From positions 7,728,001-7,792,000 of the forward strand of contig NZ_CP022685.1 of NCBI RefSeq assembly GCF_002556545.1: DNA of 64,000 nt, read 5' to 3'. Origin of the DNA: Streptomyces formicae. Lineage in GTDB: Bacteria > Actinomycetota > Actinomycetes > Streptomycetales > Streptomycetaceae. The translations under genes and the position numbers were made by a program. The notes under the pieces are model-generated. The model was not told the origin of the DNA. It saw nothing but the letters and a program-made list of their open reading frames with translations, and searched no databases. Within the stretch, counting starts at the first letter, position 1, and the number at the start of each line of letters is the position of its first letter. Shown here one piece after another: positions 29,158 to 51,033 of this stretch.

Positions 29158-29943
29158 GTGGGCGAGGTGGAGGCGGAGGGCCGGTTATGGGACCAAGGCA
29201 CCCAGGACTGGGCCGAGTTCCAGGAGGCCCAGTTCCAGTCGTCCTTCGAGGACGCGTTGGGGCAGGCAGGAGTCGGCCCCGGCAGCAAGGTGCTCGACGT
29301 GGGCTGCGGATCGGGGCTGCTGCTGCGGCTCGCCGCGGCGCGCGGTGCCACGACGGCGGGGCTCGACGCCTCGCCCGGACTGCTCGGCATCGCCCGCGAG
29401 CGACTGCCCGAAGGGTCCGACCTGCGCGTCGGTGACCTTCAGGAACTTCCCTACGAAGACGGGGAGTTCGACGTCCTGCTCTCGTTCAACGCGCTGCGCT
29501 ACGCGCGCGATCCGGTCGCCGCGGTGCGCGGCTTCGGCCGGGTCGTGCGGTCCGGCGGAGCGGTGGTCCTCGGCGGCTGGGGCGAACCGGTCAAGTGCGA
29601 GACCACCGCGATGCTCTTCGACGTGCTCGCGCTGCTGCCCGAACCCCCGGCGGGATCCGGGACCGACGCGGCCAACACGCCCACGGAGGTGCGGCGCGCG
29701 GTGCGCGGGGCCGGGCTGCCGATCGTCTTCACCAAGGAGCTCTCCTGCCCCTTCGGCTACCCGGACCTGACGACGGCCTGGTCGGCCCTCGGCGCCACCG
29801 GGCTGCTGCGGCACGCGAGTTCGGTGGCGGGCGAGCGTACCGTCCGCGCCGTCTTCGACCGGCACTTCAGGGGCTCCGTGCGCGCCGACGGCACCGTCGT
29901 GCAGCACAACACCTGCGAGTACGCGATCGCCCGAGTTCCATAA
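29158..29943 (+). CDS. forM: SAM-dependent class I methyltransferase (ForM)
   Basis: A 261-residue class I methyltransferase for O-methylation (or possibly C-methylation) of the fasamycin/formicamycin scaffold. Motif I is VLDVGCGSGLLLRLAA, followed by GLDASPGLLGIARERLPEG, DLQELPYEDGEFDVLLSFNA and the post-motif VVRSGGAVVLGGWGEPVK. GTG 29158 is chosen because GGGAG lies five bases upstream; ATG 29146 in the same frame is possible but has no ribosome site. Codon 10 is TTA (29185-29187), so translation should depend on bldA tRNA. First gene of the probable forM-forL-forK unit. The symbol is assigned by order and family from memory of the S. formicae cluster. Confidence 0.85.
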   Translation: MGEVEAEGRLWDQGTQDWAEFQEAQFQSSFEDALGQAGVGPGSKVLDVGCGSGLLLRLAAARGATTAGLDASPGLLGIARERLPEGSDLRVGDLQELPYEDGEFDVLLSFNALRYARDPVAAVRGFGRVVRSGGAVVLGGWGEPVKCETTAMLFDVLALLPEPPAGSGTDAANTPTEVRRAVRGAGLPIVFTKELSCPFGYPDLTTAWSALGATGLLRHASSVAGERTVRAVFDRHFRGSVRADGTVVQHNTCEYAIARVP

Positions 29944-29977
29944 CGCGAGATTCCGCAAGGCGAAAGGGAGTTCGTCC

Positions 29978-30319
29978 ATGCACACCACGTTGATCGTCGC
30001 GCGGCACCTGCCCGGGAGCGAGGCCGAGATCGCCCGCCTCTTCGCCGAGTCGGACGCCAGCGGACTGCCCGAGCAGATCGGTGTCCGCACCCGCAAGCTC
30101 TTCACCTTCCACGACGTGTACATCCACCAGGTCGAGTCCGAGGTCGCGGCGGGACCGAGCATCGAGAGCCACCGCAAGAACCCGCTCTTCCAGCAGATCA
30201 GCAAGGCGCTCGACGAGTACATCCAGCCCTACCAAGGCAGTTGGGGCTCCATCCACGCCGCGTCGGCGACGCAGTTCTACCAGTGGGAGCGGGGCCGCGG
30301 CGTAGTCCCCGTCGAGTAG
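29978..30319 (+). CDS. forL: TcmI-like polyketide cyclase (ForL)
   Basis: A 113-residue small cyclase of the TcmI family (ferredoxin-like fold), which guides late ring closure in aromatic polyketides. Typical features are the start MHTTLIVARHLPGSEAEIAR, the segment LPEQIGVRTRKLFTFHDVYI, and the C-terminal AQPYQGSWGSIH-like stretch (here QPYQGSWGSIHAASATQFYQ). Length is normal for the family. ATG 29978 has a GAAAGGGAG site. It follows forM by 34 bases and precedes the antiporter gene by 7, so all three are one transcription unit. In this pathway it probably closes one of the outer rings of the pentacyclic intermediate. Confidence 0.9.
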   Translation: MHTTLIVARHLPGSEAEIARLFAESDASGLPEQIGVRTRKLFTFHDVYIHQVESEVAAGPSIESHRKNPLFQQISKALDEYIQPYQGSWGSIHAASATQFYQWERGRGVVPVE

Positions 30320-30326
30320 TCCCGCC

Positions 30327-31763
30327 ATGGCGGACCACAAGGGATGCCGGATGCGGACGGAGGGCGCGGGCGGGCGCGGGCTCGCCCTGGCCTGCGTGCT
30401 CGCGGTCCTGCCCCTGGCCGCCGCGGCACTGCTGCTGTGGCAGGGGGTGGGCTCCGCGCCCGCGTCCGGCGCGGGCGCCGCGCGCGAGGGCGCGTCGGCA
30501 GGCTCCGGCGACGGGATGACCGGCTGGCGCCTGCTGCTCGCCCTCGCGGTGATCATCGCCGCCGCACGGGCCGCGGGCGCCCTCTTCAGCCGCTTCCTCG
30601 GCCAGCCCAGAGTGATCGGCGAGATGGTGGCGGGGATCGTGCTCGGCCCCTCGGTCCTCGGCATGCTCACCCCCGGCCTCTACCACACGCTGTTCCCCGG
30701 GCCGCTGCTTCCGCACATCGAGGCGGTCTCCCAGATCGGCCTCGCCCTCTTCATGTTCCTGGTGGGCCTGGAGTTCGGCGCGGCCCGCCACGAGGGGCAG
30801 GGGCGCACCGGCATGGCCGTCGGCTTCGTGGGGGTCGCGCTGCCGTGCGCGCTCGGCATCGGGCTCGGCTGCGCGATGTACCGGACGCTCGCCCCGCACG
30901 GCGTGGAGTTCGTGCCCTTCGCCCTCTTCATCGGCGTCGCCATGAGCGTGACCGCTTTCCCCGTGCTCGCCCGCCTCCTGATGGAGCGCGGCCTGCTGCA
31001 ATCGCGCGCCGGATCACTCGCGGTGCTCGGCGCTGCCGTCGCCGACCTGGTCTGCTGGCTGCTCCTCGCCCTCGTGGTGACCCTGCTGCGCAGCTCGTCG
31101 CCGCTGGGCGTGGTGCGCACGCTCGCGCTGACCGCGCTGTTCCTCGCGGGCATGCTGCTCCTCGTACGACCCTTGCTGCGCAAGGCGCTCGGGCGTCCCG
31201 AGCGGTGGCTGCCCGACGGCGGGCTGCTCGCGCTCGTGCTGGTCGGCGTGCTGCTCTCGGCCGTGGCGACCGAGCGGATCGGGGTGCATCTGATCTTCGG
31301 TGCCTTCCTGTTCGGGGCGGTCTGCCCGGCGGGCGTGCCCGCCCTGGACGCCGTGCAGGACCGGATGCAGGAGTTCACCACGTCGGTGCTGCTCCCGCCG
31401 TTCTTCGCGTACGTCGGCCTCAAGACCGACCTCGGACTGCTCGCCGACGACGCCGGGCTCTGGCTGTGGGCGGGGGCGACCCTGTTCGTCGCGGTGGCGG
31501 GCAAGATCGTGGGCTGTGCCGCCGCGGCCGCGCTGATGGGCGTGGGGCGCGCGGACGCCCTGCGGGTGGGCACGCTGATGAACTGCCGCGGCCTGACCGA
31601 ACTGGTCATCCTCACCATCGGCCGCGAACTCGGCGTGCTCTCGCCTTCCCTGTTCACCGTGCTCGTGCTCGTCGCGCTCGCCGCGACGGTGATGACCGCG
31701 CCGCTCCTGGACGTGCTCGACCGGCGGACGGCCGACGCGGCACTTCTATCCATCCACCACTGA
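30327..31763 (+). CDS. forK: CPA2-type cation/proton antiporter (ForK)
   Basis: A 478-residue membrane protein with about 12-13 hydrophobic helices, of the CPA2 Na+(K+)/H+ exchanger family. Recognisable pieces are RFLGQPRVIGEMVAGIVLGP, ALFMFLVGLEF, GVAMSVTAFPVLARLLMERG, GAAVADLVCWLLLALVV (with the conserved Asp), HLIFGAFLFGAVCP and MNCRGLTELVILTIGREL. Such genes sit in several aromatic polyketide clusters; here it may export the acidic product, or balance pH or ions during its export. Self-resistance is inference. ATG 30327 lies 7 bases after forL. Symbol from gene order, less certain than for the enzymes. Confidence 0.88.
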   Translation: MADHKGCRMRTEGAGGRGLALACVLAVLPLAAAALLLWQGVGSAPASGAGAAREGASAGSGDGMTGWRLLLALAVIIAAARAAGALFSRFLGQPRVIGEMVAGIVLGPSVLGMLTPGLYHTLFPGPLLPHIEAVSQIGLALFMFLVGLEFGAARHEGQGRTGMAVGFVGVALPCALGIGLGCAMYRTLAPHGVEFVPFALFIGVAMSVTAFPVLARLLMERGLLQSRAGSLAVLGAAVADLVCWLLLALVVTLLRSSSPLGVVRTLALTALFLAGMLLLVRPLLRKALGRPERWLPDGGLLALVLVGVLLSAVATERIGVHLIFGAFLFGAVCPAGVPALDAVQDRMQEFTTSVLLPPFFAYVGLKTDLGLLADDAGLWLWAGATLFVAVAGKIVGCAAAAALMGVGRADALRVGTLMNCRGLTELVILTIGRELGVLSPSLFTVLVLVALAATVMTAPLLDVLDRRTADAALLSIHH

Positions 31764-31772
31764 CTTCTGCAA

Positions 31773-31786
31773 TGATTGACCAAGTC
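31773..31786. promoter_or_regulatory. candidate ForJ-type operator upstream of forJ
   Basis: TGATTGACCAAGTC lies between the forK stop and forJ, about 55 bases before the forJ start. It matches TGATTGAGTAAGTC of the forT/forU region at 12 of 14 positions, which suggests autoregulation of forJ. Confidence 0.45.
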
Positions 31787-31840
31787 CGCCGATTCCCCCA
31801 CCGGCGGTCTCGAAGCACGTCACAGCAGAGGTGAGCGAAC

Positions 31841-32290
31841 ATGACCACGACCACGGCGCCGCCCGCGGCCGGCAAGGCGGCGCAGAGCGCGCTGCTCGGC
31901 AGCCTGTTGGACTTCGCGCAGGCGCACCAGGACCAACTGGTGCGCACCGCCGCCGACTTGGGCATCACCGTGCCCCAGGCGCGGGCGCTCTACCACGTCG
32001 TCACGGCACCGACCGTGCGGAAACTCGCTGTGAAGCTGCGTTGCGATGCCTCCTACGTCACGGGTCTCGTGGACCGCCTCGAAGAGCGCAAGCTCATGAA
32101 GCGGCATGTGGATCCGGACGACCGCAGGGTCAAGATGCTCACCCTGACCGCCGCGGGCCGCCGGATGCACACGAAGGTGGCGCGCACCATGGACACGGCG
32201 CCCGCCCTCGAAGCGCTCACCGAAGAGGAGAAGACGCGGCTCGGCGCCCTCATGGAGAAGGTGTCGGCACAGGTGCCCGCGGGGCACTGA
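31841..32290 (+). CDS. forJ: MarR-family repressor (ForJ)
   Basis: A 149-residue MarR-type regulator. Helix-turn-helix and wing are in TVRKLAVKLRCDASYVTGLV and DRLEERKLMKRHVDPDDRRVKM, the last part being the conserved D-x-R wing. In the S. formicae system ForJ is, from memory, the main repressor of the pathway. Here a TGATTGA-type motif before forM, forJ and forT/forU fits that role. ATG 31841 has an AGAGGTGAGC site. Its own promoter probably lies in the 77-bp gap after forK. Convergent with forI. Phenolic pathway products would be natural ligands, by inference from the MarR family. Confidence 0.9.
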   Translation: MTTTTAPPAAGKAAQSALLGSLLDFAQAHQDQLVRTAADLGITVPQARALYHVVTAPTVRKLAVKLRCDASYVTGLVDRLEERKLMKRHVDPDDRRVKMLTLTAAGRRMHTKVARTMDTAPALEALTEEEKTRLGALMEKVSAQVPAGH

Positions 32291-32311
32291 CGCGGTCGTT
32301 CCCGGCGGGGC

Positions 32312-33679
32312 CTAGGCACGGTCCGCCTCCGCCCCCGCCAGGAGTTCGTCCGCGTACGTCGCCCGGTGGCGCCCCGACCTGAAGCGCGGATCCGCGAGGA
32401 CCCGGAGCAGGAACGGACGCGTCGTACGCATCCCGCGGCCCTCGATCCTGAACTCGCCGAGCGCCCGCTCCATGCGGGCGAGCGCGGCCTCCCGGTCGGG
32501 GCCCCAGGTGATCACCTTGGCGAGCAGCGGGTCGTACGCGCCCGAGACGCGCGCGCCCGCGAAGCCGTAGCCGTCGACCCGGACGAAGGGCCCGCCCGGC
32601 GGCTCGTACACGTCGAGGACGCCCGGCGTGGGCGCGAACGCCCGGTCGGGATCCTCGGCGTTGACCCGGCACTCCACGGCCACGCCGCGCGGCCGCACGT
32701 CCTCCTGGCGTACGGACAGGGGCAGCCCGGCCGCCACCCGCAGCTGCTCGGCGACCAGATCGACGCCCGTCACCATCTCGGTGACCGGATGCTCCACCTG
32801 GATACGGCAGTTGACCTCGATGAAGTGGAAGCGGTCGGCGTCGTCCACGACGAACTCGAAGGTGCCCGCGCCCTCGTACCCCGCCTCCCGCGCGCCGCGC
32901 ACGGCGGCCTCCGCCATCTCGCGGGCGACCTCCGGCGCCAGCGTCGGCGCGGGCGACTCCTCGATCAGCTTCTGGCGGCGGCGCTGCACGGTGCAGTCGC
33001 GGACGCCGAGGTGGACGGCGCCGCCGTGCCGGTCGCAGAGCACCTGCACCTCGACGTGGCGGGCGGGGCGCACCAGGCGCTCCAGGTAGACCCGGCCGTC
33101 GCCGAAGAGCTGCTGGGCCTCGGCGCGGGCCTCCCGGAAGGCGTCCCGCAGCCCTGCGGCGTCGTCCGCCGTGCGGATGCCGCGCCCGCCGCCGCCCGCG
33201 GCCGCCTTGACGAGCAGGGGATAGCCGAGGGCCGAGGCGAGCGCGAGGGCGTCGGCCTCGTCGTGCGGGGGCCGCTCGCTGCCGGGCGGCAGCGGCACGT
33301 CGCTGCGGCCCATCAGGGCGCGGCCCGCGGGCTTGCCGCCGAGCGCCTCGATGACGGCCGCGGGCGGGCCCACGAAGGCGAGGCCGTTCTTCGCGCACAC
33401 CTCCGCGAAGTCCCGGTCCTCGGAGAGGAGCCCGTAGCCGGGGTGGACCGCGTCGGCGCCGGTGCGCAGCGCGGCCTCGACGATGTTGTTCATCCGCAGG
33501 TAGCTGTGCCTGGCGGGCGCAGGGCCGATGCACACGGCCTCGTCGGCCATGCGGACGACGGCGCTGTCGGTGTCCTCCGTGGAGTGCACGGCGACCACCG
33601 CGATGCCCAGCTCACGGCAGGTGCGCGCGACGCGCAGCGCGATCTCGCCCCGGTTGGCGATCAGGACCTTGCGGAACAC
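32312..33679 (-). CDS. forI: acetyl-CoA carboxylase biotin carboxylase subunit (ForI)
   Basis: A 455-residue biotin carboxylase (AccC type) that carboxylates biotin on the carrier using ATP and bicarbonate. It begins [20 protein letters not shown] and shows the ATP-grasp glycine loop [14 protein letters not shown], the biotin/bicarbonate region [34 protein letters not shown] and [18 protein letters not shown] 33679 is chosen since GGGGAGG is five bases upstream and the N terminus fits exactly there; it overlaps the end of forH by 19 bases. With forH and forE it gives a pathway-specific malonyl-CoA supply for the long tridecaketide chain. Confidence 0.93.
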
Positions 33680-35484
33680 AGCGCCTCCCCGTGCCGCACG
33701 GAGCCGTCCATGTCCCGGTAGCGTCGGGTGCGCCGGGCGACCAGCTCGTCGGGGGAGAGCGCGAGGGAGTCCCGCAGGGCCCACCAGAGCGCGCCGCGCA
33801 GCCGCTCGGCGGCCAGGCCGGGGTCGGTGTGCGCGCCGCCCTCCGGCTCGCGCACCACGCCGTCCACGATGCCGTGCCGCAGCAACCGCTCGGGTACCAG
33901 GCCGAGTTCGTCGGCGGCCCGGGGCGCGGCCGCGGGGTCCTGCCACAGGATCGCGGCGCAGCCCTCCGGGCTGATCACCGAGTACGTGGCGTTCTCGCAG
34001 ATCAGCACGCGGTCGGCGACGGCAAGCCCCAGCGCGCCGCCACTGCCGCCTTCGCCGATGACGACGGCGACCACCGGGACGGGCAGGGTGCTCATCAGGC
34101 AGAGGCTCTCGGCGATCGCGAAAGCCTGTCCGTTCTCCTCCGCCTCGATGCCCGGATGGGCGCCGGGGGTGTCGATGAGGGTCACCACGGGCAGGCCGAT
34201 GCGGGCGGCCAGGCACATGAGGCGCCCCGCCTTGCGGTACCCGGCAGGGGACGCCATCGCGTAGTTGCGGGCGGCCAGTTCGGCAGGAGTGTGCCCCTTC
34301 TGGTGGCCGATGAGCATGACGGGCACGCCGTCCAGGGTGCCGATCCCGCCGACCATGGCCGCGCAGTCGCCCGAGGCGCGGTCCCCGCGCAACTCCTCGA
34401 AGCCGTCGAGGACGCGGCCCGCGTAGTCGAGCACGGTGGGGCGCTCCAGCTCGCGCGAGCCCTTGACCACCGGCCACGGGGCGCGGTCGGGGAGCAGCGC
34501 CGGGTCGGTCACGACGTACTCGGGCGGCTCGTTCGGCGCGGGGTCGGGCGCGGGCTGGCGCGCCGGTCCCGGCAGGGGCTCACGCGCGGTCCCCGCCGGG
34601 GCGGGGCGGTCGGCGGCCGCGAGCAGCCGCGCGAGCGCGGGGCGCAGCGCGCCGCGCCGGTACACCCCGTCCACCAGGCCGTGTTCGAGCAGGAACTCGG
34701 CGGTCTGGAAGCCCTCGGGCAGCCGCTGGCGGATGGTCTGCTCGATCACGCGCGGCCCCGCGAAGCCGAGCCGGGTGCCGGACTCGGCGACGATCACGTC
34801 GGCGAGCGTGGCGAAGGACGCGGCGACACCGCCGTACGTCGGGTCGGTGATCAGCGAGACGGTGAACACCCCGGCCGCCCGCAGCCGCGCGAACGCGGAG
34901 CCGGTCTTGGCCATCTGCATGAGCGAGTGGGCGCCCTCCTGCATCCGGGCCCCGCCCGACGCGGTGACGACGAGGAACGGCGTGCGGGTGCGCAGCGCCT
35001 CCTCGGCCGCGCGCGTGACGAGTTCGCCGACCGCGCTGCCGAGACTGCCGCCGAGGAACCGGAAGTCCATGACCGCCACGACCACGGGCCGCCCGGCCAG
35101 GGCGCCGCGCGCGCAGAGCACCGCCTCGTCGAGACCGGTGGCGGCGCGGGCGCGGGCGAGGCGCTCGGCGTACGGCTGGGTGTCGGTGAAGTCCAGCGGG
35201 TCCCGCGCGGCGACGGGAAAGTCCAACTGCCGTACGGAGCCCGGGTCCAGGAGCGTGCTCAGCCGCTCGTGGGCGCTCAGCCGGTGGTGGTGGCCGCAGT
35301 CGGGGCAGACCTGGAGGGCGCGCCGCAGCCGCGTGCGGTAGACGACCCCGTGGCAGGCGTCGCAGACGGCCCAGTCGGAGTCGGAGTCGGAGTCGGTTCC
35401 GGTGTTCTGCGCCGGGGACCCGCGCCCCGCCCCGGCCCGGTCGGCCGGGTCGGCATGGTGTGGTCGGGCGCTGCTCACGGTCAT
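33661..35484 (-). CDS. forH: acetyl-CoA carboxylase carboxyltransferase, fused beta-alpha subunits (ForH)
   Basis: A 607-residue AccD-AccA fusion. Residues ~40-62 form the Cys4 zinc ribbon of AccD ([20 protein letters not shown], then PDC). The beta-type carboxyltransferase follows ([51 protein letters not shown]). After a Pro-rich linker at ~310-340 the alpha-type half has [59 protein letters not shown] and [18 protein letters not shown]. It transfers the carboxyl from biotin to acetyl-CoA. ATG 35484 has a GGGGG site. It is transcribed with forI, diverging from forG. Confidence 0.93.
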
Positions 35485-35993
35485 CGTGTACCCCCTGTGC
35501 ACGAAGCCTGCGTGATTCATCGGCTGCGCCCGACCCTAATCGCGGCCGGTGGGGGCGCTCAACGCATCCGGCCCAAGGACAGATCCGGACAGTAGGGGGT
35601 GGCATGGCGGTCTATGGCACACGGGGGAGGGGACATCCCTCCTTCGGCAGAGCCGCCGCGGGTCGGACGGGGGACGGAACCTGTCCCAGTGGGCGGGGCC
35701 GCTGTCCGAATCGGCATATTGCGACATTGACGGCGTGCGGGATGACCGGAGTAACGTCACTCGTAGCGTGGCGGGACCCTCAGGTGACACTTACCTGCCT
35801 GCCGCGGGCCGAAGGCGGAGGGGCAGTGCTGAACGACGATGATCGCGCACTCGACCAGTACGGGGGACCGTGACCGGCACACAGTGGTGGCCTGCCCGTG
35901 GGCCCGCACCCGCCCGGCCGGCGGGAGTCCGCGGCGCGCACCCGCACGCCCCGCCCTCCCGCGAGACCGCGCGACCGAACCGGGGAGGCTGCT
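35485..35993. promoter_or_regulatory. divergent control region between forH and forG
   Basis: This 509-bp region separates the divergent forHI and forGF units. No gene is supported in it. GGACAG occurs twice in direct order 10 bases apart (35579 and 35589), and its complement CTGTCC recurs near 35688 and 35701, a possible binding array for the ForF response regulator. A possible rightward promoter for forG has TTGACG at 35727-35732 with a weak -10 near 35750-35757. Confidence 0.4.
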
Positions 35994-37085
35994 GTGAACG
36001 AGGCTGCCACTGATCACTTAAGCCGCGGACCCGAGATCGCCGAGGCCCTCGGGGCCCGTCTCGAGTCCGTGCTCCACCACTACGAACAGCGCCTGCTCGC
36101 CTCGGGCGTGGGGGTCGACGACCCGCGCGTACTGAGCTTCTGCACCCTTCAGGCCAGGGCCGTGATCGAGGACTCGCTCCAGGCGCTCGGCAGCCGTCGG
36201 CCCCTGGAGCGGATGCGCTCGGTCGATGCCGAACGCGGCACGGGCAACGGCACCGTCTCCTTCCCCTACCAGGCCGACTGGCGCCTGGAGGATCCGCGCA
36301 CCGCCGTGATGCTGCTCTTCGACGTGGTCGTGGAGGCGGTCGCGGCGTCCATGACGCACCATCCCGACACCTCGCGGTGCACCGTGGAGGCGGCCGTCAG
36401 CCTGCACCACAGCATCATGTGGCGGTTCCAGGCCGCACTGGAGACCAAGACCAGGCAGATGCTCCACGAGACGGCCCAGAGCTTCCTGGAGAACCGCCGC
36501 AGCATCTCCCGCGACCTGCACGACCGGGTCGGCTACGCGGTGAGCGTGGCCAAGCAGAACGTCGAACTGGTGCGCCTGTACCGGGCGTTGGACGCCCCCT
36601 CTGCGGACGCCAAGCTGGTGGAGGCGGAGGACTCGCTGCGCACCGCGCTCGAAGAGGTCAGGCAACTCGCCTGCGAGCTGCGGGTGCACGCCCGCATCGA
36701 GGGTCTGGAGAACGCGCTGCGGCACTGCGCGCAGGCGCTGTGCGCACCGGACGCCGCCTTCGACATCGTCGTCACCGGGCACGAGAGCTGGCTCTCCGAC
36801 GACACGATGGACGAGCTCTTCCAGGCGCTGCGCGAGGCCCTGCGCAACGCCTTCGCGCACTCCATGGCGAGCACGGTCACCGTGCGCGTCGACATCGCGC
36901 CGCACGAGACGCGGGCGGTGGTCGAGGACGACGGGGTCGGCTTCGAGGTGGCCAGGCGCCCCGGCGGCGTGGGGCTCACCTCGATGCGCGAGCGCATCGA
37001 GCGCCTCGGCGGCTCGGTCGGCATCTCCAGTCACACGGGCAGGGGCGTCTTCGTCGAGTTCCTGCTGCCCACGAAGAGCGGATGA
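35994..37085 (+). CDS. forG: NarL-type sensor histidine kinase (ForG)
   Basis: A 363-residue sensor kinase of the HisKA_3 class with no clear transmembrane helix, so probably cytoplasmic sensing. The first ~165 residues are an input domain of unknown ligand. The phospho-His is in RRSISRDLHDRVGYAVSVAK (about residue 176). The ATPase domain has LREALRNAFAHSMASTVTV (N box), VVEDDGVGF (G1) and GGVGLTSMRERIERLGG (G2). GTG 35994 has a perfect GGGGAGG site and codon 9 is TTA (36018-36020), so synthesis should need bldA. Paired with forF seven bases downstream. From memory, ForGF activates formicamycin production. Confidence 0.9.
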   Translation: MNEAATDHLSRGPEIAEALGARLESVLHHYEQRLLASGVGVDDPRVLSFCTLQARAVIEDSLQALGSRRPLERMRSVDAERGTGNGTVSFPYQADWRLEDPRTAVMLLFDVVVEAVAASMTHHPDTSRCTVEAAVSLHHSIMWRFQAALETKTRQMLHETAQSFLENRRSISRDLHDRVGYAVSVAKQNVELVRLYRALDAPSADAKLVEAEDSLRTALEEVRQLACELRVHARIEGLENALRHCAQALCAPDAAFDIVVTGHESWLSDDTMDELFQALREALRNAFAHSMASTVTVRVDIAPHETRAVVEDDGVGFEVARRPGGVGLTSMRERIERLGGSVGISSHTGRGVFVEFLLPTKSG

Positions 37086-37092
37086 GGCGCGG

Positions 37093-37752
37093 ATGCAGAC
37101 CGTGGTGACCCGCATCGTGATCGTCGACGACCACACGCTCGTACGCGACGGACTGAGCGAGATGCTCAACGCGGAGCCGGAGTTCCTGGTCGTCGGCGAG
37201 GCGGGGGACGGCCCGGGGGCGGTCGAGGTGATCGCGGCCAAGTCGCCCGACGTGGTGCTGCTCGACGTCGGGCTGCCCGACGGCGACGCCGTGGGGACGC
37301 TGCGGCGCATCCTCGACGCGGTCCCCGCGGTGCGGGTGATCATGGTGAGCGTGTACGACGAGCCGCGCATCGTCCAGGAACTGCTCAGGGGCGGTGCCCG
37401 CGGCTATCTGCTCAAGACCGTGTCCCGGCAGGACCTCGTGGCGGCGGTACGGGCGGTGGTCGCCGACGACGAACGGGTCGTCCTGTCGGTCTCCCGGGCG
37501 AGCATGGCGCAGGTGCACACCCCGGCTCCCTCCGAGCCGGGGCTGCTCTCCGCCCGTGAGCGCGAGGTCATGACCCTGGTCGCCCAGGGCATGACCAACG
37601 GCCAGACGGCGCGTCAGCTCGCGGTGGCCGAGGGCACCGTGAAGCACCATCTGCGCAACATCTTCGCCAAGTTGGGCGCCACCTCGCGGATCGACGCCGT
37701 GAACAAGGCGATCGCGGCCTCACTGATCGCCCCGCAGGGCGACCGGGGCTGA
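37093..37752 (+). CDS. forF: LuxR/NarL-family response regulator (ForF)
   Basis: A 219-residue response regulator. Residues 7-120 are the receiver domain: acidic pocket IVDDHTLV, phospho-Asp58 in DVVLLDVGLPDG, Thr/Ser switch MVSVYDEP, and conserved Lys in GYLLKTVS. Residues ~155-212 are the LuxR-type HTH (LSAREREVMTLVAQGMTNGQ, TARQLAVAEGTVKHHLRNIF, AKLG). ATG 37093 lies 7 bases after forG and the pair is one operon, so bldA control of forG extends to this gene by coupling. Targets are likely in the forG/forH region and possibly the tandem repeats before forM. Convergent with forE. Confidence 0.92.
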   Translation: MQTVVTRIVIVDDHTLVRDGLSEMLNAEPEFLVVGEAGDGPGAVEVIAAKSPDVVLLDVGLPDGDAVGTLRRILDAVPAVRVIMVSVYDEPRIVQELLRGGARGYLLKTVSRQDLVAAVRAVVADDERVVLSVSRASMAQVHTPAPSEPGLLSAREREVMTLVAQGMTNGQTARQLAVAEGTVKHHLRNIFAKLGATSRIDAVNKAIAASLIAPQGDRG

Positions 37753-43290: not shown

Positions 43291-43331
43291 GGTGAGGTGC
43301 TCCTCCTGTAAAGCAATTTGGGGACCAATCC

Positions 43332-43379: not shown

Positions 43380-43410
43380 GAGGCAACCGAGAGAGTGAGG
43401 GCAGCTCCAC

Positions 43411-43770
43411 ATGGCCGAGATCTCCGCCGACAACGAGTTCGCCACGTTCATCAACCTGTTCCCGACCAAGCCGCGGGACCAGCAGAAGCTGGTCGATCTG
43501 ATCGTCAAGGCGCACGAGGAGCTGATCCGGCACCGGCCCGGCTACATCTCCGGCAACGTGCACCGCAGCGTCGACGGCTACCAGGTCGTCGACTACACGC
43601 AGTGGCGCCGACGCGAGGACTTCGAGGCGATGGTGCGGGACCCCGCGTCCGCCCCGCACTTCATGCCGATCGGCGAACTGACCCAGGGCAAGCAGGGCGC
43701 GTACGACGTCGTCTACACCCACGTAGCTCAAGAGGGCCACGTCACCCAGGAAGGGAACGGCGATGAGTGA
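43411..43770 (+). CDS. forU: antibiotic biosynthesis monooxygenase-family protein (ForU)
   Basis: A 119-residue ABM-domain protein. The pattern NEFATFINLFPTKPRDQQKL, GYISGNVHRSVDGYQVVDYT and QWRRREDFEAMVRDP has the conserved Asn and Trp of the family. Such proteins insert oxygen into anthrone-type rings without cofactor, or assist cyclisation. ATG 43411 has a GAGGG site ten bases upstream. It overlaps the halogenase start by 8 bases (ATGAGTGA). The C-terminal ~15 residues (EGHVTQEGNGDE) are a hydrophilic extension. First gene of the rightward forU-V-W-X-(small ORF)-Y operon. Confidence 0.9.
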   Translation: MAEISADNEFATFINLFPTKPRDQQKLVDLIVKAHEELIRHRPGYISGNVHRSVDGYQVVDYTQWRRREDFEAMVRDPASAPHFMPIGELTQGKQGAYDVVYTHVAQEGHVTQEGNGDE

Positions 43771-45055
43771 CCAGCAGCGCCACTACGACGTCGTGGTGGT
43801 CGGCGGCGGCCCGGCCGGCGCCTCCACCGCCGCACTGCTCGCCACCGAGGGCCGCAGCGTCCTCGTCCTGGAACGCGAGAAGTTCCCCCGCTACCACATC
43901 GGCGAGTCCCTCATCCCCGGCGTGTGGCCGACCCTGGACCGGCTCGGGCTGCGCGAACGCCTGGAGAACATGGGGCTCGTGCGGAAGTACGGCGGCACCC
44001 TGGTGTGGGGCCGCGACCTGCCGCAGTGGACCTTCTCCTTCGCCGACGGCGGCCCCTACCCGTACGCCTACCAGGTGCGCCGCGCCGACTTCGACGCGCT
44101 CCTGCTCACTCGCGCCAGGGAACTCGGCGCCCACGTCGTGGAGGACGCCACCGTCAAGGAACCGCTCTTCGACGGCGAGCGCATGACCGGCGTGCGCTAC
44201 CAGCCGCGCGGCGGCGACCCGGTCGAGGCGCACGCCGACCTGGTCGTCGACGCGTCGGGCCAACAGCGCTGGCTCGGACGCCACTTCGACCTCATCCGGT
44301 GGCACGAGGACCTGCGCAACATCGCCGTCTGGGCGTACTTCCAGGGCTGCCGCAGGTACGAGGGGCAGGAGAGCGGCAACGTCCTGATCGAGTACCGTCC
44401 CGGCGGCTGGCTCTGGTTCATCCCGCTCGGCGACGGCACCACCAGCATCGGCTACGTCACCCCGACCGCCACCCTCGCCGAGTCGGGCCTGACCGCGGAG
44501 AAGCTCTGGGCCGAGCAGACCGCCGAGTCCCGCGAGGTCGCCCGGATGATGGAGCCCGCGACGCGCGTCAGCGGCTTCCGTACCATCAAGGACTGGTCGT
44601 ACAACCTGGAGCGCTTCCACGGACCCGGCTGGCTCGCCGTCGGCGACGCCGCCTGCTTCGTCGACCCGCTGCTCTCCACCGGCGTCACCCTCGCCCTGCG
44701 CGGCGGCGCCACCGCGGCCAGCGCCGCGGGGATGATGCTCGACACCCCCGCCACCGCGCACGAGACGGGCCGGCGCTACGAGGAGAGCTACCGGCGCTTC
44801 CTCACCGGCATCCTCGACTTCGTCCGCGCCTTCTACGACCAGCGCAAGAACCGCGGCGAGTACTACGAGGACGCCAAGAAGATCCTCGACAGGGGCGAAG
44901 GGCTGCCCGCCGACGTCGACTTCGTGACCCTGGTGTCCGGTCTCTCCGACGGCGGCGACTTCTTCGAGAGCCCGCCCGAGGGCGGACTGGAACTCCTGGA
45001 GAAGCTGCGCAGCCGCGTCTCGGCACCGCCGATGACCGTGGAGCGGGGCCGGTGA
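43763..45055 (+). CDS. forV: flavin-dependent halogenase (ForV)
   Basis: A 430-residue FADH2-dependent halogenase acting on phenolic rings of the fasamycin/formicamycin scaffold. It has the nucleotide-binding start YDVVVVGGGPAGASTAALLA, the halogenase segment KFPRYHIGESLIPGVWPTLD, and the WxWxIP motif as GGWLWFIPLGDG near residue 215. GDAACFVDPLLSTGVTLALR closes the FAD site. It has no reductase domain, so it needs a separate flavin reductase. ATG 43763 overlaps forU. It predicts chlorinated (or brominated) products, up to several halogens as known for this group. Confidence 0.93.
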   Translation: MSDQQRHYDVVVVGGGPAGASTAALLATEGRSVLVLEREKFPRYHIGESLIPGVWPTLDRLGLRERLENMGLVRKYGGTLVWGRDLPQWTFSFADGGPYPYAYQVRRADFDALLLTRARELGAHVVEDATVKEPLFDGERMTGVRYQPRGGDPVEAHADLVVDASGQQRWLGRHFDLIRWHEDLRNIAVWAYFQGCRRYEGQESGNVLIEYRPGGWLWFIPLGDGTTSIGYVTPTATLAESGLTAEKLWAEQTAESREVARMMEPATRVSGFRTIKDWSYNLERFHGPGWLAVGDAACFVDPLLSTGVTLALRGGATAASAAGMMLDTPATAHETGRRYEESYRRFLTGILDFVRAFYDQRKNRGEYYEDAKKILDRGEGLPADVDFVTLVSGLSDGGDFFESPPEGGLELLEKLRSRVSAPPMTVERGR

Positions 45056-46077
45056 CGGCACAGGAGCAGAGCGCACTCCTGACGCGGGTCTCCACCGGCA
45101 GCTGGCTGATCCACGCGCTCAACGCCGTGGCGCGGCTCGGCGTCCCCGACGTCCTGGACGAGACGCCGCGCCCCGTCGAGGAGTTCGCACCGGGGCTCGG
45201 CGCGGACGCCGACGCGCTCGGCAGGACCCTGCGGGCCCTCGCGGCCCTCGACTTCTTCACCGAGGGGCCGCGCGGGCACTTCGCCCTGAACGAGTCGGCG
45301 CGGCTGCTGCGCGCCGACGCGCCCGCACCGCTGCGGGCCTTCCTCTCGGTCGGGGTGGAGCGCGTGCTCCCGCTCTTCGGGGAGCTGGAGCACACCCTCA
45401 GGACCGGCAGACCCGCCGCCGAGAAGATCTACGGGATGCCGTACTTCGACTACCTCGACCAACACCCCGACACCGACCGCGAGTTCACCAAGTCCCTCGG
45501 CCGCAGCGGCGCCGCCTTCTTCGACGCCGCCCTCGACCGGATGGAGCTGGACGGCACGGAGCACCTGGTCGACCTCGGCGGCGGCGACGGCGCCTTCGTC
45601 GAACTGGCGCTGCGCAGACACCCCCGGCTCACCGCCACCCTCCTGGACCGGCCCGCGATGCTCGGCGCCGCGCGCGAGCGGATGGGCGAAGCGGGTCTCA
45701 CCGAGCGGTGCGCCCTGGTCGGCGGGAGCTTCTTCGACGACGTGCCCACCGGCGGTGACGTCTACTGCGTCGCCCGCTGTCTGCACAACTGGGACGACGA
45801 CACGGCGCGGACGCTGCTGCGCACGGTGCGCACCGCGATGGGCCCCGGCGCCCGGCTGATGATCGTCGAGGACGTCGTGCCGGAAGGCCCCGCCACCGCG
45901 ACGGCCGGGTACGCGGACCTGGTGATGATGCTCATCGGCGGCAGGGAACGCACCCTCGCTGAGTACGAGGCGCTGCTCGGCGACGCACGCTTCACCCTCA
46001 CCGGGGCGCGGCCCATCGGCACCGTCGCCGCGCCCCGGCTCCACCTCGTCGAAGCCGCCCCCGTCACCCAGGAGTGA
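45052..46077 (+). CDS. forW: O-methyltransferase (ForW)
   Basis: A 341-residue O-methyltransferase with helical dimerisation region (LLTRVSTGSWLIHALNAVAR) and SAM-binding domain (HLVDLGGGDGAFVELALRRH). The catalytic His is present in CLHNWDDDTARTLL (about residue 245), with the following acidic pair and IVEDVVPEG. It should methylate a phenol on the pentacyclic scaffold. GTG 45052 overlaps the forV stop (GTGA). Paralogue of forT by fold but with the full catalytic set, so the two were probably duplicated and then diverged in reaction type. Confidence 0.92.
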   Translation: MTAQEQSALLTRVSTGSWLIHALNAVARLGVPDVLDETPRPVEEFAPGLGADADALGRTLRALAALDFFTEGPRGHFALNESARLLRADAPAPLRAFLSVGVERVLPLFGELEHTLRTGRPAAEKIYGMPYFDYLDQHPDTDREFTKSLGRSGAAFFDAALDRMELDGTEHLVDLGGGDGAFVELALRRHPRLTATLLDRPAMLGAARERMGEAGLTERCALVGGSFFDDVPTGGDVYCVARCLHNWDDDTARTLLRTVRTAMGPGARLMIVEDVVPEGPATATAGYADLVMMLIGGRERTLAEYEALLGDARFTLTGARPIGTVAAPRLHLVEAAPVTQE

Positions 46078-46086
46078 GGAAGCACG

Positions 46087-47802
46087 ATGACCGATCACGT
46101 ATCCGTGCTCGTCGTCGGCGGGGCACTGGGAGGGCTCTCGTCCGCCCTCTTCCTCGCCCGCGCGGGCGTCCCCGTCCTGCTGGCGGAGCGCCACGCCGCC
46201 ACCTCGAACCAGCCGCGTTTCCGCGGTCCCACGATCCGCTCGATGGAAGTGCTGCGCGGCGTCGGCCTGGAGGACCGCGTCCGCGCCGCGGGCACCAGTG
46301 ACCGCGAGATCGGCGGCATCGCCTGGGTCGGTGACAACCTCGCCGACCCGGAGGTCCGCTGGAACGTCGAACCCTGGGAGGAGGACCTCAGCGGCGTCAG
46401 CCCCACCGTGGCCTGCGCCTGCGACCAGGACAAGTTCGAGCCGCTGCTGCTCGACCGGGCGCGTGAGCTGGGCGCGGGCATCCGCTTCGGCAGCGAGCTC
46501 ACCGGCTTCGAGCAGGACGCGGACGGCGTCACCGCCGTCCTGCTCGACCGCGCCACCGGCGCCGAACGCACCGTGCGCGCGGACTACTTGATCGCCGCGG
46601 ACGGCACCCACAGTCCGGTGCGCGAGCGCCTCGGCATCGCCAGGCAGGGGCCGGGGCTGCTCGGCCACCGCATCAGCATCTACTTCGCCGCGGACCTGCG
46701 TCCCGAACTGGACGGCCGCGTCTTCTCCGCCTGCTTCGTCGAGGGCATGGGCGCCAGCCTGCTGCCGCGCGACTCGGGGCTGTGGCAGCTCTCCGTGCCG
46801 TACCGGCCCGAACAGGGCGAGAGCGAGCGGGACTTCACGCCTGAGCGCTGCCGTGGCCTGATCCGCTCCGCGCTCGGCAGGGACGACGTGCACGCCGAGC
46901 TGCGCAGCACGTCCCCGTGGGAGATCGCCATGCTCGTCGCCGAGCGCTTCCAGGAGGGCCGGGTCTTCCTCGTCGGGGACAGCGCCCATGTGATGCCGCC
47001 GACGGGCGGGTTCGGCGGCAACTCCGCGATCCAGGACGCCCACAACCTCGCCTGGAAGATGGCCGCGGTCCTCGCGGGCACGGCGGGCCCCGGACTGCTC
47101 GACACCTACGGCCCCGAGCGGCGCGCGGTCGCCGAGCTCACCGTCGCCGCCACGGCCAGCAGGCTGCCCGCCTCCTGGGTCGGTGAGGGCGCGGACGGCC
47201 AGGCGCACGGCCTCGCGCCCACCGGTGGCCCCACCCCCGTCGGCGGCCTGCCCCCGGCCGCCGACCACAACACGGTCTCCCTCGGCTACCGCTACCGATC
47301 GGCCGCGGTGCTCCTGGACGAGGACGACGGCGACCCCGTCGAGGACCCGCGCAAACCCACCGGACGCCCCGGCACCCGCGCGGCCCACGTCGTCCTCCAA
47401 CGCCCGGACGCCACCCGCCTCTCCACCCTCGACCTGTGGCAGGACACCTACGTCCTGCTGACGGGGGAGCGGGGCGAACGGTGGCTGACCGCCGCCCGCG
47501 AGGCCGCCGCGGAACTGGGCATCACGCTCCCCGCCCACCGCGTCGGCCCACCCGGCACCGACGCGGACCTGTCGGACACCACGGGACAGTGGCCCCGGGC
47601 GTACGGCGTCCCCGCGGACGGCGCGACACTGATCCGCCCGGACGGCTTCGTGGCCTGGCGCGCTCTGTCGCCGCCGGACCACCCGGGAGCGGCCCTCACC
47701 GACGCCTTGCGCAGGCTGCACGACCGGCCGCGCGAGGGCGTGGGGGTGGGCGCGGACGGCTCGGGTGCGGCGCGTCGGGACCGGAACGGGAGGCGGCCGT
47801 GA
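46087..47802 (+). CDS. forX: FAD-dependent group A monooxygenase, Baeyer-Villiger type (ForX)
   Basis: A 571-residue aromatic flavoprotein hydroxylase of the RdmE/TcmG/MtmOIV class. FAD motifs are VSVLVVGGALGGLSSALFLA (first Gly-rich loop, with Ala at one usual Gly), YLIAADGTHSPVRERLGI (DG motif) and FLVGDSAHVMPPTGGFGGNS (GD motif, about residue 298). The C-terminal ~160 residues form the thioredoxin-like extension of this class. In the formicamycin pathway, as I recall, ForX oxidises fasamycin and performs ring expansion, the first of a two-step change of the backbone. ATG 46087 has a GAGGAAGC site, 10 bases after forW. Confidence 0.93.
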   Translation: MTDHVSVLVVGGALGGLSSALFLARAGVPVLLAERHAATSNQPRFRGPTIRSMEVLRGVGLEDRVRAAGTSDREIGGIAWVGDNLADPEVRWNVEPWEEDLSGVSPTVACACDQDKFEPLLLDRARELGAGIRFGSELTGFEQDADGVTAVLLDRATGAERTVRADYLIAADGTHSPVRERLGIARQGPGLLGHRISIYFAADLRPELDGRVFSACFVEGMGASLLPRDSGLWQLSVPYRPEQGESERDFTPERCRGLIRSALGRDDVHAELRSTSPWEIAMLVAERFQEGRVFLVGDSAHVMPPTGGFGGNSAIQDAHNLAWKMAAVLAGTAGPGLLDTYGPERRAVAELTVAATASRLPASWVGEGADGQAHGLAPTGGPTPVGGLPPAADHNTVSLGYRYRSAAVLLDEDDGDPVEDPRKPTGRPGTRAAHVVLQRPDATRLSTLDLWQDTYVLLTGERGERWLTAAREAAAELGITLPAHRVGPPGTDADLSDTTGQWPRAYGVPADGATLIRPDGFVAWRALSPPDHPGAALTDALRRLHDRPREGVGVGADGSGAARRDRNGRRP

Positions 47803-47984
47803 CGAGCCCCTCTGTTCTCGTCGCCCGGTCTCGCCGGACGCCGCAGGACCGGCCTCTCACCGTCCTCGTCGACACTCCGAGCGGCGTGTACGACCGGCCC
47901 GCCGGTCACGGCAGCGGGTGGTCGCGCGATCGGTCCCGTACCGAGGCGGACGGATCGCGTCCGGGCGGGAGGCGGCCGTCATGA
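47799..47984 (+). CDS. 61-residue ORF coupled to forX and forY
   Basis: GTG 47799 overlaps the forX stop (GTGA) and the frame ends with a TGA that overlaps the forY start (ATGA), so a 61-codon ORF exactly fills the gap. GGGAGGCGGCC stands before its GTG and the same sequence recurs before the forY ATG. The peptide (SPSVLVARSRRTPQDRPLTV, LVDTPSGVYDRPAGHGSGWS) is basic and Ser/Arg-rich with no recognised domain. G/C at third positions is a little lower than in neighbours. It could be a translated coupling peptide, a small product or just an open spacer. Confidence 0.4.
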   Translation: MTSPSVLVARSRRTPQDRPLTVLVDTPSGVYDRPAGHGSGWSRDRSRTEADGSRPGGRRPS

Positions 47985-48928
47985 GTCGCGTGGGTGTGCT
48001 CTTTCCCGGGTTCTATCCCGGGAGTTCGCGGCCCCCCGACCCGGCCGTCCTCGGCACCGCCGCGCGGGTCGCCGAGCGCGAGGGGTTCGACGGGTTCTGG
48101 GTGCCCGAGCGCGTCACGGGGCTCGTGAGCGACCCCGTTGTCGCCCTCGCCTACGCGGCCGCCGCCACCAGCCGGATCGGGCTCGGCACTGCCGTGCTCA
48201 CCCTGCCGGGACGGCCGCCCGCGCTGCTCGCCAAGCAGCTCGCGAGCCTGGACAGGCTCAGCGGCGGCAGGCTCACCGTCGCGCTCGGACTCGGGCGCGC
48301 CGATCCGGGCGAGCAGCAGGCGTTCGGGGTGCGGCGGGGTGCCCGCGCGGCCCTGTTCGACGAGGCGCTGCCGCTGTTGCGCAGGCTGTGGCGGGACGAC
48401 CCCGTGAGCCATGACGGCGCCGCCGCGCGCTACGAGGGCCTGGACGTGCTGCCCAAGCCGGCGCGGCCGGGCCCCGCCCTCTGGCTGGGCGGCGCGAGCG
48501 ACGCCCAACTGCGCAGGGCGGGGCGGCTCGCCGACGGCTGGCTCGGCGCGTCCACGACCACGCCGGGCGGCGCCGAGCGGGCCCGCACCGTGATCGCGGA
48601 GGCCGCCGCGCGCGCGGGCCGCGTCATCGGCGACGAGGGCTACGGCTCCGTGGTGCCCTACCGGCGCCGCGAGGAGCCGCTCGGCCCCGTGCAGCAGATG
48701 GTCCTCGACCGGCTGCGCGCCGAGCGACTGGTCGGCGGCGTCGAGGAGTTCGCGCCCACCCTGGACCTGCTGCCCGACAGGCTGCGGTCCCTCGCGTCGG
48801 CCGGTCTCTCCACGTTCGTGCTCGTGCCGTTCGCCGAACCGGCCGACTGGGAGGAGGAGTTGTGCGCCCTCGCCGGGGCCGTGCTCACCGCTCGCACGCC
48901 GCCACGACGAGCTGCCAGGTACGGATGA
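47981..48928 (+). CDS. forY: luciferase-like (LLM class) flavin/F420 reductase (ForY)
   Basis: A 315-residue LLM-class oxidoreductase with an alpha/beta barrel binding FMN or F420. Segments typical of the class are AARVAEREGFDGFWVPERVT, SRIGLGTAVLTLPGRPPALL, SLDRLSGGRLTVALGLGRAD and PALWLGGASDAQLRRAGRLA. In S. formicae, from memory, ForY reduces the lactone intermediate made by ForX and triggers ring contraction to the formicamycin core. ATG 47981 follows GGGAGGCGGCC. It overlaps the convergent forZ by 44 bases. Presence of both forX and forY predicts formicamycins, not just fasamycins, as products. Confidence 0.9.
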   Translation: MSRVGVLFPGFYPGSSRPPDPAVLGTAARVAEREGFDGFWVPERVTGLVSDPVVALAYAAAATSRIGLGTAVLTLPGRPPALLAKQLASLDRLSGGRLTVALGLGRADPGEQQAFGVRRGARAALFDEALPLLRRLWRDDPVSHDGAAARYEGLDVLPKPARPGPALWLGGASDAQLRRAGRLADGWLGASTTTPGGAERARTVIAEAAARAGRVIGDEGYGSVVPYRRREEPLGPVQQMVLDRLRAERLVGGVEEFAPTLDLLPDRLRSLASAGLSTFVLVPFAEPADWEEELCALAGAVLTARTPPRRAARYG

Positions 48929-49403
48929 AGTCCTTGCGGGCCGAGGGCGAGATCCCGGCGAGCGCGTCGTACAGCGGGGCGAGCCTGAGCCGCGCGCACT
49001 GCTCGATCAGCGAGCGGTGCGGTTCGAGGACGCTGACGATCGTGCGCCGCCGGTCGGCGTCGTCCTCGACGCGTGCCACGAGCCCGCCCCTGTGCAGCTC
49101 GTTGACGAGCTGACTGGTGGTCGTCGGGCCGAGCGAGAGCCGCTCGGCCAGCTCGCCCACCGATGCCGGGCCGTCCATCGCCAGTGAGATCAGCGGCTCC
49201 AGATGGCGGTTGGCGAGCCCGGCGTCACCGAGCAGCGCGCGCAGCTCCTCGGGCGCCGCCTCCTGGGAATCCCTGACGCGCCGCGTGAAACGCGTGACGA
49301 GCCGGATGAGGGCCTTCACGTCGTCGGCGAGCTCGGGACTCGCGTCGGCGGTCAACTCGACTGCGGCTGCGTCCGGTTCGGCACCGGCGGGAGGGGAGGC
49401 CAT
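48885..49403 (-). CDS. forZ: MarR-family regulator (ForZ)
   Basis: A 172-residue MarR-type regulator. DNA-binding part is ASVGELAERLSLGPTTTSQL, VNELHRGGLVARVEDDADRR, RTIVSVLEP. The N-terminal ~30 residues are an Ala/Glu-rich extension. It is divergent from the MFS gene forAA, with 88 bases between, and a TCGAA-C-TTCGA palindrome in the gap. This is the classic arrangement for a product-sensing exporter control, and ForZ is remembered as the regulator of forAA. ATG 49403 is chosen over the upstream TTG at 49439. It overlaps the end of forY tail to tail. Confidence 0.9.
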   Translation of the reverse strand: MASPPAGAEPDAAAVELTADASPELADDVKALIRLVTRFTRRVRDSQEAAPEELRALLGDAGLANRHLEPLISLAMDGPASVGELAERLSLGPTTTSQLVNELHRGGLVARVEDDADRRRTIVSVLEPHRSLIEQCARLRLAPLYDALAGISPSARKDFIRTWQLVVAACER

Positions 49404-49445
49404 GGCTTGAAGTCCAGCACGTCCGGTGCTGTACTGCAAGATGCA

Positions 49446-49456
49446 TCGAACTTCGA
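49446..49456. promoter_or_regulatory. palindrome in forZ-forAA gap, candidate ForZ operator
   Basis: TCGAACTTCGA is a perfect palindrome with a single central base, placed about midway between the divergent forZ and forAA starts. It fits a MarR-protein binding site that would control both genes. Confidence 0.5.
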
Positions 49457-49491
49457 GCTAATGTGACTCAGAGGCAATCCGGGAGGCCGTC

Positions 49492-51033
49492 ATGGGTGCC
49501 CAAGGCGTGAACGAGTTACCGGAGCGCGAGGGCCCGCCGGGACCGGAGGAACGCCTGGGGAGGGAGATCTGGGTGACGGCCGGCGTGGTCGTCCTCGGCA
49601 CGATCATGGCGGTGCTCGACACCACCATCGTCAACGTCGCCCTCAACACCCTGAGCAAGGACCTCGACACCGGACTCGCCACGCTCCAATGGGTGGTGAC
49701 CGGCTACTTCCTCGCGATGGCCATGGTGATCCCCCTCGTCGGCTGGGCCGTGGAACGCTTCGGCACCAAGCCCCTGTGGCTGCTCTCCCTCACCTTCTTC
49801 GCCCTCGGCTCCGCGCTCTCCGGCGCCGCCTGGTCCATCGAGAGCCTGATCGCCTTCCGCGTCGTCCAGGGCCTCGGCGGCGGCATGCTGATGCCGCTGG
49901 CGCAGACGATCCTCGCGACCGCGGCGGGACCCCAGCGGATGGGCCGCGTGATGAGCATCATCGGTGTGCCGATGCTCCTCGGCCCGGTCCTCGGGCCCGT
50001 GCTCGGCGGCTGGCTCGTCGGCGTCGACTGGCGGCTGATCTTCTACATCAACGTCCCGCTCGGCGCCCTCGCCGTGGCCGCCGCCGTGAAGTGGCTGCCG
50101 GGCACGCCCCCGAGGGAAGGCGGCGGCGCCGGCCTGGACACCCGGGGCCTCGCCCTGCTCTCCACCGGGCTCGTCGCCCTGCTGTACGGCCTCTCGCGCG
50201 CGGGCACCGAGGGCTTCGGCGACGGCGTCGTGGTCGTCGCCCTCGCGATCGGCGTGCTCCTGCTCGCCGTCTTCGCCGTGGCGGCCGCGCGGCGCGGCGC
50301 CGACGCGCTCATCGACGTACGCCTGTTCCGCAACCGCACCTTCGGCGCGGCCTCGCTCACCACTTTCCTGTTCAGCGTCGGCCTGTTCGGCTCGATGCTG
50401 CTCCTCCCGCTCTTCTACCAGACGGCGAAGGGCGAGAGCGCGCTCACCGCGGGCCTGCTGCTCGCGCCGCAGGGGCTCGGGGCCGCGCTCGCCATGCCCC
50501 TCGCCGGGGTGCTCACCGACCGCCTCGGCGCGGGCCGGGTGGTGCTCGCGGGGGTGACCCTGGCCCTCGCGGGGACCTTCCTCTACACCCAGGTCGACCC
50601 CGACACCTCGTACACCCTGCTCGCCCTGTCCCTCGTGGTCCGCGGATTCGGGCTCGGCGCGACCATGAGCCCGACGCTGTCCGCCGCGTACGCGACGCTC
50701 ACCAAGGACGCCGTGCCCCGGGCGAGCAGTACCCTCACCATCGTCCAGCAGATCGGCGGCTCCTTCGGCAGCGCCGTCCTGAGCGTCGTGCTGAGCAGCC
50801 GCATCAGCGCCAACCTGCCGTCGGGCGCCGGGAGTTCAGGAGGCGGCGGGGCGGGCGAGCTGCCCGACGCCGTCCGGCAGCGGTTCGAGGCACCGCTCGC
50901 CACGGCGTTCGCCGAGACGTTCTGGACGGCGTTCGGACTCGTCGCGCTCATCTACCTGCCCGCGCTCTTCCTGCCCAGGAAGCCGCTGGAGAAGGGAACA
51001 GACGCACCACGTGAACATGCGCAAGGGTGGTGA
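49492..51033 (+). CDS. forAA: MFS drug exporter, DHA2/EmrB type with 14 helices (ForAA)
   Basis: A 513-residue proton-driven exporter with about 14 membrane helices. Family motifs are TIMAVLDTTIVNVALNTLSK (helix 1, motif D1), FGTKPLWLLSLTFFALGSAL (motif A), FRVVQGLGGGMLMPLAQTIL (motif B) and GPVLGPVLGGWLVGVDWRLI (motif C). It should export the halogenated polyketide and confer self-resistance. ATG 49492 has a GGGAGG site. Codon 9 is TTA (49516-49518), so export capacity should also depend on bldA tRNA. It is divergent from forZ, and it is the right edge of the cluster. Confidence 0.93.
   Translation: MGAQGVNELPEREGPPGPEERLGREIWVTAGVVVLGTIMAVLDTTIVNVALNTLSKDLDTGLATLQWVVTGYFLAMAMVIPLVGWAVERFGTKPLWLLSLTFFALGSALSGAAWSIESLIAFRVVQGLGGGMLMPLAQTILATAAGPQRMGRVMSIIGVPMLLGPVLGPVLGGWLVGVDWRLIFYINVPLGALAVAAAVKWLPGTPPREGGGAGLDTRGLALLSTGLVALLYGLSRAGTEGFGDGVVVVALAIGVLLLAVFAVAAARRGADALIDVRLFRNRTFGAASLTTFLFSVGLFGSMLLLPLFYQTAKGESALTAGLLLAPQGLGAALAMPLAGVLTDRLGAGRVVLAGVTLALAGTFLYTQVDPDTSYTLLALSLVVRGFGLGATMSPTLSAAYATLTKDAVPRASSTLTIVQQIGGSFGSAVLSVVLSSRISANLPSGAGSSGGGGAGELPDAVRQRFEAPLATAFAETFWTAFGLVALIYLPALFLPRKPLEKGTDAPREHAQGW

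Follow-up and report, generated by a model that had tools for sequence, protein, structure and literature searches.

TTA is a rare leucine codon in Streptomyces, and its tRNA, the bldA tRNA, serves as a developmental control. In the act (actinorhodin) cluster of Streptomyces coelicolor, the regulatory and export genes were reportedly described as bldA targets by Fernandez-Moreno et al. in 1991; the actinorhodin regulator is a SARP-type activator. In Streptomyces ghanaensis, the UUA codons of moeO5 and moeE5 need bldA, and MoeE5 was absent from a bldA mutant in a Western blot (PMC3814723). A UUA-containing polycistronic mRNA was apparently destabilised in a bldA mutant of S. coelicolor (PMC2000904). 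The locus described here is the formicamycin (for) cluster of Streptomyces formicae, contained in a window of 64,000 nucleotides (bases 7,728,001-7,792,000 of a single-contig genome of 9,611,874 bases). Formicamycins are active against methicillin-resistant Staphylococcus aureus and vancomycin-resistant enterococci. Three genes of the cluster, forM, forG and forAA, have a TTA codon close to the start, and synthesis of the three full-length proteins probably depends on the bldA tRNA as a result. The dependence would act mainly through ForG, as a permissive requirement added to the control by ForJ, ForZ and ForGF.

The TTA codons are in frame at 29185..29187 in forM (codon 10, or codon 14 from ATG 29146), at 36018..36020 in forG (codon 9) and at 49516..49518 in forAA (codon 9), all on the forward strand and all where the original prediction had placed them. 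The genes were called with a simple caller of our own, and the for gene letters were given from gene order and published descriptions. Each TTA gene was also predicted to be first or alone in its transcription unit, which agrees with the published forGF operon and the separate forM and forAA promoters (PMC12421854); the gene after forAA lies on the opposite strand.

ForG is the likely key point of the dependence. The forG gene (35994..37085, forward strand) encodes a cytoplasmic sensor histidine kinase with HisKA_3 and HATPase_c domains (gene call, Pfam; PMC12421854). The response regulator gene forF (37093..37752, forward strand; gene call, Pfam) begins 7 bases after it in the same operon (PMC12421854). 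The forG start, GTG 35994, is preceded by GGGGAGG and is backed by two further observations: the published phosphorylated histidine H175 is His176 counted from this GTG, i.e. within one residue, and the sequence of a His-tagged ForG in the database, P0087, continues from MNEAATDHLSRG, the same residues as at the called start. P0087 is found on a contig of 6,427 bases in a public assembly set and looks like a ForG expression plasmid, not a natural gene. No convincing in-frame start was found downstream of the TTA within the first 50 codons of either forG or forM. Deletion of forGF abolishes production (PMC12421854). With ForG indispensable, a bldA mutant should lose production through ForG alone.

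The forM gene (29158..29943, forward strand) encodes an S-adenosylmethionine-dependent methyltransferase (gene call; Pfam Methyltransf_11), putatively an O-methyltransferase; ForM or ForW has been proposed for the O-methylation (PMC5414599). The start at GTG 29158 has GGGAG five bases upstream, and the alternative start, ATG 29146, is that of the database protein P0001. The gene heads the run forM-forL-forK, in which forL (29978-30319; gene call) and forK (30351-31763; Na+/H+ exchanger family by gene call and Pfam) follow on the forM strand after short gaps. From this arrangement forL and forK are predicted to be co-transcribed with forM, and polarity could affect both.

The exporter gene forAA (49492..51033, forward strand; gene call, Pfam; PMC12421854) encodes a protein of the major facilitator superfamily and is divergent from forZ (48885..49403, reverse strand; gene call, Pfam), which encodes a MarR-family regulator of forAA and has no TTA. 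The forAA start, ATG 49492, has GGGAGG upstream, and the TTA is situated in a variable N-terminal tail with the motif NELP. The published transcription start sites of forM and forAA are both upstream of the gene starts (PMC12421854), and the two TTA codons are therefore inside the mRNA. By the published data, the forM transcription start site is within ForJ sites in the divergent promoter between forN and forM, and the forAA one is overlapped by the ForZ operator (PMC12421854). The published ForZ probe for this operator matches the window exactly at 49433..49462 (reverse strand), upstream of the forAA start.

A tRNA-Leu search gave three matches, and among these one gene has the anticodon TAA (G000:C1:3870501-3870584) and the other two have GAG. 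The three genes can thus be described as candidate bldA-dependent TTA genes, with an in-frame TTA in the translated part (in forAA with reserve for a possible later start, GTG 49573) and with the tRNA gene present in the genome. In this respect the interpretation first given to the codons stands, as a tRNA that reads UUA is needed for each of the three full-length proteins. Without bldA, ForG would not be made in normal amounts, and by polarity within the short forGF operon neither would ForF; as ForGF is essential, production would fail in a bldA mutant. The forM codon would lower its own step, perhaps with ForL and ForK as well, and the forAA codon would lower export. The bldA tRNA would then be an added AND condition on top of repression by ForJ, control of forAA by ForZ and formicamycin, and activation by ForGF, and the requirement is probably a permissive dependence and not the main switch. 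The dependence in vivo, the polarity and the timing are inferences.

The frequency of TTA was compared with a background sample of the S. formicae genome, made up of 57 stretches of 20 kb each (1.14 Mb in total, 952 called genes). TTA occurs in 21 of the 952 genes and makes up 22 of 33,452 leucine codons, compared with 3 of 838 in the 24 for genes (Fisher P=0.022). Early TTA codons, defined as those within the first 20 codons by a cut-off picked post hoc when the data had already been seen, occur in 5 of the 952. The probability of three TTA genes among 24 is 0.015 for a single cluster and 0.50 for at least one of 45 clusters, a correction based on the approximately 45 clusters of the S. formicae genome (PMC12551763). 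For three early TTA genes the probabilities are 2.7e-4 for a single cluster and 0.012 over 45 clusters (post hoc); the single-cluster value becomes 0.003 when the early rate is set at its upper 95% limit. The count across window and genome sample that the original prediction had suggested thus gives an excess of early TTA codons in the cluster, while three TTA genes at any position are unremarkable over some 45 clusters. No TTA gene was found among the 26 genes of the 28 kb that flank the window. The early TTA codons of this well-studied cluster form a real set, and a modestly improbable one.

Twenty-two other polyketide synthase (PKS) or non-ribosomal peptide synthetase (NRPS) neighbourhoods were also compared. 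These are regions of 8-80 kb, mostly 20-kb blocks, placed at genes that encode ketosynthase or condensation domains; they are not whole clusters, some may hold fatty-acid rather than antibiotic genes, and the set partly overlaps the background sample (two stretches common to both, some others overlapping by 2-18 kb). TTA was found in 19 of their 750 genes, three times early and at most once early per neighbourhood. That such neighbourhoods are TTA-rich in general was considered and rejected, as 19 of 750 genes is not clearly different from 21 of 952 in the background.

An alternative explanation is that the three codons are neutral leftovers: mutation or horizontal transfer would have put them into 5' ends, where codons ending in A or T are tolerated or favoured, and they would have little regulatory effect, enough bldA tRNA being present whenever the cluster is transcribed. 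This is possible, though we consider it the less probable account, and the evidence is divided. TTA is the sole all-A/T codon in each of forM, forG and forAA. Early all-A/T codons number 3 TTA to 4 others in the cluster, against 5 to 211 in the genome sample (Fisher P=0.001), and the ratio of TTA to CTA is 3:1 vs 19:89 (P=0.023); both comparisons are post hoc, and this excess of TTA over its A/T-rich peers argues against neutrality. On the other side are the value of 0.50 for three TTA genes in some cluster and the published indication that forX-forAA is a separate insertion (PMC5414599). The same 2017 paper reports a syntenic cluster in S. kanamyceticus that lacks forX-forAA.

Conservation of the encoded residue differs among the three proteins. 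The alignments contained the best 14 of 86 matches for ForM, 8 of 34 for ForG and 11 of 120 listed matches for ForAA, each with the window's own sequence, which is included in the counts; for ForG, the tagged P0087 and P0095 were left out among the best ten. The forM TTA encodes a near-invariant leucine (14/15 sequences), and at the forG position leucine is found in 7 of 9, the other two having Val and Asp. At these mostly constrained positions TTA is therefore one of several synonymous options, and the conservation again speaks against neutral leftovers in these two genes. At the forAA position leucine is found in 4/12 sequences, which are the closest ones, and the tail otherwise varies; this poor conservation fits the neutral account. 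Among the aligned database matches, NPDC059002 comes closest of the strains that have all three genes (ForM 90%, ForG 94%, ForAA 85%). Its proteins P0002, P0089 and P0122 have leucine at all three TTA positions, a comparison at the amino-acid level only.

Several observations on codon usage, translation, a related cluster and culture conditions weigh against bldA dependence and are taken together here. One of the 22 neighbourhoods has three TTA genes, one of them early, and one background stretch has four, none early. In the codon-position analysis, which used the 892 of 952 genes with a coding score of >=30 (60 low-score genes were dropped), codons ending in A or T make up 13.6% of codons 2-20 vs 6.4% elsewhere, a 2.1-fold enrichment that is also the main support for neutral leftovers. 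Among the 34 rarest codons listed, the enrichment in codons 2-20 is 6.3-fold for TTA, 4.2 for CTA, 7.1 for AGA, 6.4 for ACT and 4.2 for AAA, so that single codons reach about 7-fold; wrong starts would raise apparent counts of early A/T codons. Genome-wide, the 5' bias of TTA is not significantly above that of other all-A/T codons (P=0.17). Because A/T-ending codons are enriched at 5' ends and TTA no more so than its all-A/T peers, the position of a TTA is by itself weak evidence, and 5' position alone was rejected as a sign of bldA regulation.

Two further points against the dependence concern translation. In forAA, GTG 49573 is a possible start downstream of the TTA; it is a weak candidate with a purine-rich run upstream, and its use would remove 27 residues just ahead of the first membrane helix. 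UUA can also be mistranslated without bldA, and in S. ghanaensis AdpA was still weakly made, which was ascribed to mistranslation (PMC3814723).

The search for related clusters gave one divergent case. ForG was searched in 392, 296, 394 and 393 genomes of the genus or family (overlapping draws), with one close homologue outside S. formicae, in genome G219 (55% identity); the other matches in the search of 392 genomes had 28-42% identity. With KSalpha in 395 genomes, G219 was nearest at 79%, followed by G392 at 73%. A search of genome contigs for relatives gave distant kinases only (24-37% identity) among the best 80 of 241 loci; no match was found in the plasmid search for close relatives and none was confirmed in the viral scan. 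The cluster in G219 (G219:C216:37290-49654) is for-like, with 15 genes having their best match to a for gene (forA-D, F, G, J-L and R-W) and none to forE, H, I, M, N, X-Z or AA. None of the genes called over 55 kb at this cluster has a TTA, and the forG position is GTG (Val), in a ForG 55% identical. The searches brought up no DNA of S. kanamyceticus or of the NPDC strains, and the codon comparison covers this one divergent cluster.

The culture conditions under which formicamycins are made also bear on the question. ForJ is the main repressor of the pathway, a redox-sensitive protein of the MarR family encoded by forJ (31841..32290, forward strand; gene call, Pfam; PMC12421854), a gene without TTA. 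Wild-type S. formicae makes no formicamycin in liquid, and deletion of forJ or the ForJ substitution C68S leads to formicamycins in liquid (PMC12421854). S. formicae does not sporulate in liquid (PMC12551763). According to these papers, liquid culture without sporulation thus permits production once ForJ is removed. Since forJ mutants produce there, it is ForJ and not UUA decoding that holds the pathway off in liquid; under those culture conditions ForJ acts as the main switch, and UUA decoding is sufficient. Production by forJ mutants in liquid is compatible with a continued need for bldA.

These results are most relevant to the claim, made in the original prediction, that the codons "lock" the pathway to development as a "checkpoint". 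Such a selected three-point developmental checkpoint, in which synthesis, activation and export are timed to late growth by maturation of the bldA tRNA, would add selection and timing to the bldA dependence favoured here. The early TTA codons, which fall in three units with complementary functions, and the excess of early TTA agree with it, as does leucine at all three positions in the NPDC059002 proteins, even though the close relatives were compared by amino acid and not by codon. The published heterologous work leaves room for it as well: with S. coelicolor M1146 as host, the cluster is active on agar only after deletion of forJ, and formicamycin then reaches about half of its level in the wild type; two forJ-deleted heterologous hosts reportedly gave no product in liquid, so that a further requirement for solid culture is possible. 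Against it are the S. formicae forJ mutants that produce in liquid without sporulation, the G219 cluster without TTA genes, a 5' position that is not diagnostic, and the poor conservation of most TTA codons across the genus (PMC10327506). We therefore regard the checkpoint as unlikely, and a developmental timing or lock by these codons is unsupported beyond bldA dependence itself. Equally doubtful is a selected three-node translational AND gate, in which codons 9-10 would halt the activator kinase operon, the methyltransferase-led biosynthetic operon and the exporter for as long as the bldA tRNA is missing. Synthesis, activation and self-protection would then become possible at the same moment, with redox control by ForJ and product control by ForZ acting in addition.

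It is also conceivable that bldA acts on the cluster only indirectly, via AdpA. A scan of the window with an AdpA consensus pattern gave three matches vs 8.2 in shuffles, with none upstream of forM, forG or forAA. AdpA could act outside the window; nevertheless the indirect route appears the most improbable of the explanations considered, and direct dependence of the three genes on the bldA tRNA remains the preferred one.

The window has a fourth TTA gene. The original prediction had found no in-frame TTA in its other intact genes, which does not hold: 4 of the 64 called window genes have a TTA, the fourth being an intact gene for a secreted protein outside the cluster (9473-10600, reverse strand; gene call), with a weak, sub-threshold PD40 match. 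The TTA at 10540 is codon 21 from ATG 10600 and is in the likely signal peptide. The product is full-length, with relatives of 52-62% over nearly the whole length in 3/60 other genomes; a fourth other genome has relatives of 39-41%, and the S. formicae genome itself has a paralogue of 60%. The codon at position 21 was read in four relatives, giving one TTA, one TTG (the paralogue) and two CTG. The relative with TTA is the homologue at 62%, from a further Streptomyces genome (L255). As for the TTA-containing stretches elsewhere in the S. formicae genome, the neighbourhood with three TTA genes is L177 (genome 1300001-1320000), at a PKS gene and with one TTA at codon 5, and the stretch with four is L148 (genome 700001-720000), 20 kb in a chromosome arm.

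A literature search for formicamycin with bldA or TTA codon gave no paper with these terms in title or abstract, most subscription journals being outside its coverage, and the word bldA is absent from the main text of the for-cluster papers PMC10391614, PMC5414599 and PMC12421854. If the preferred reading is true, formicamycin yield depends on a developmental tRNA that these main texts do not name. Heterologous titres may then be limited by bldA, and recoding the three codons would perhaps be an aid to production in S. formicae, a harmless soil bacterium.

The actinorhodin cluster is the closest precedent, and the formicamycin case is not a new kind of mechanism. Both are aromatic polyketide clusters in which the bldA tRNA acts on the activator and exporter genes, on the formicamycin side by prediction. 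The regulator differs, being a sensor kinase here and SARP-type in actinorhodin, and the formicamycin cluster has a third TTA in a methyltransferase gene; if true, the pattern of activator plus exporter extends to a kinase-controlled cluster. The moenomycin cluster likewise has more than one TTA gene, and its biosynthetic genes are direct bldA targets (PMC3814723). Moenomycin has no cluster-situated regulator, whereas the formicamycin cluster is governed by three regulatory systems, and in ForGF, which is one of them, the first gene has a TTA. The predicted effects of forG on forF and of forM on forL and forK are modelled on SCO6638-SCO6637 of S. coelicolor, where the upstream gene has a TTA and there is less of the downstream product in a bldA mutant (PMC2000904). 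Unlike the formicamycin activator kinase, SCO6638 is of unknown function and is not an antibiotic activator.

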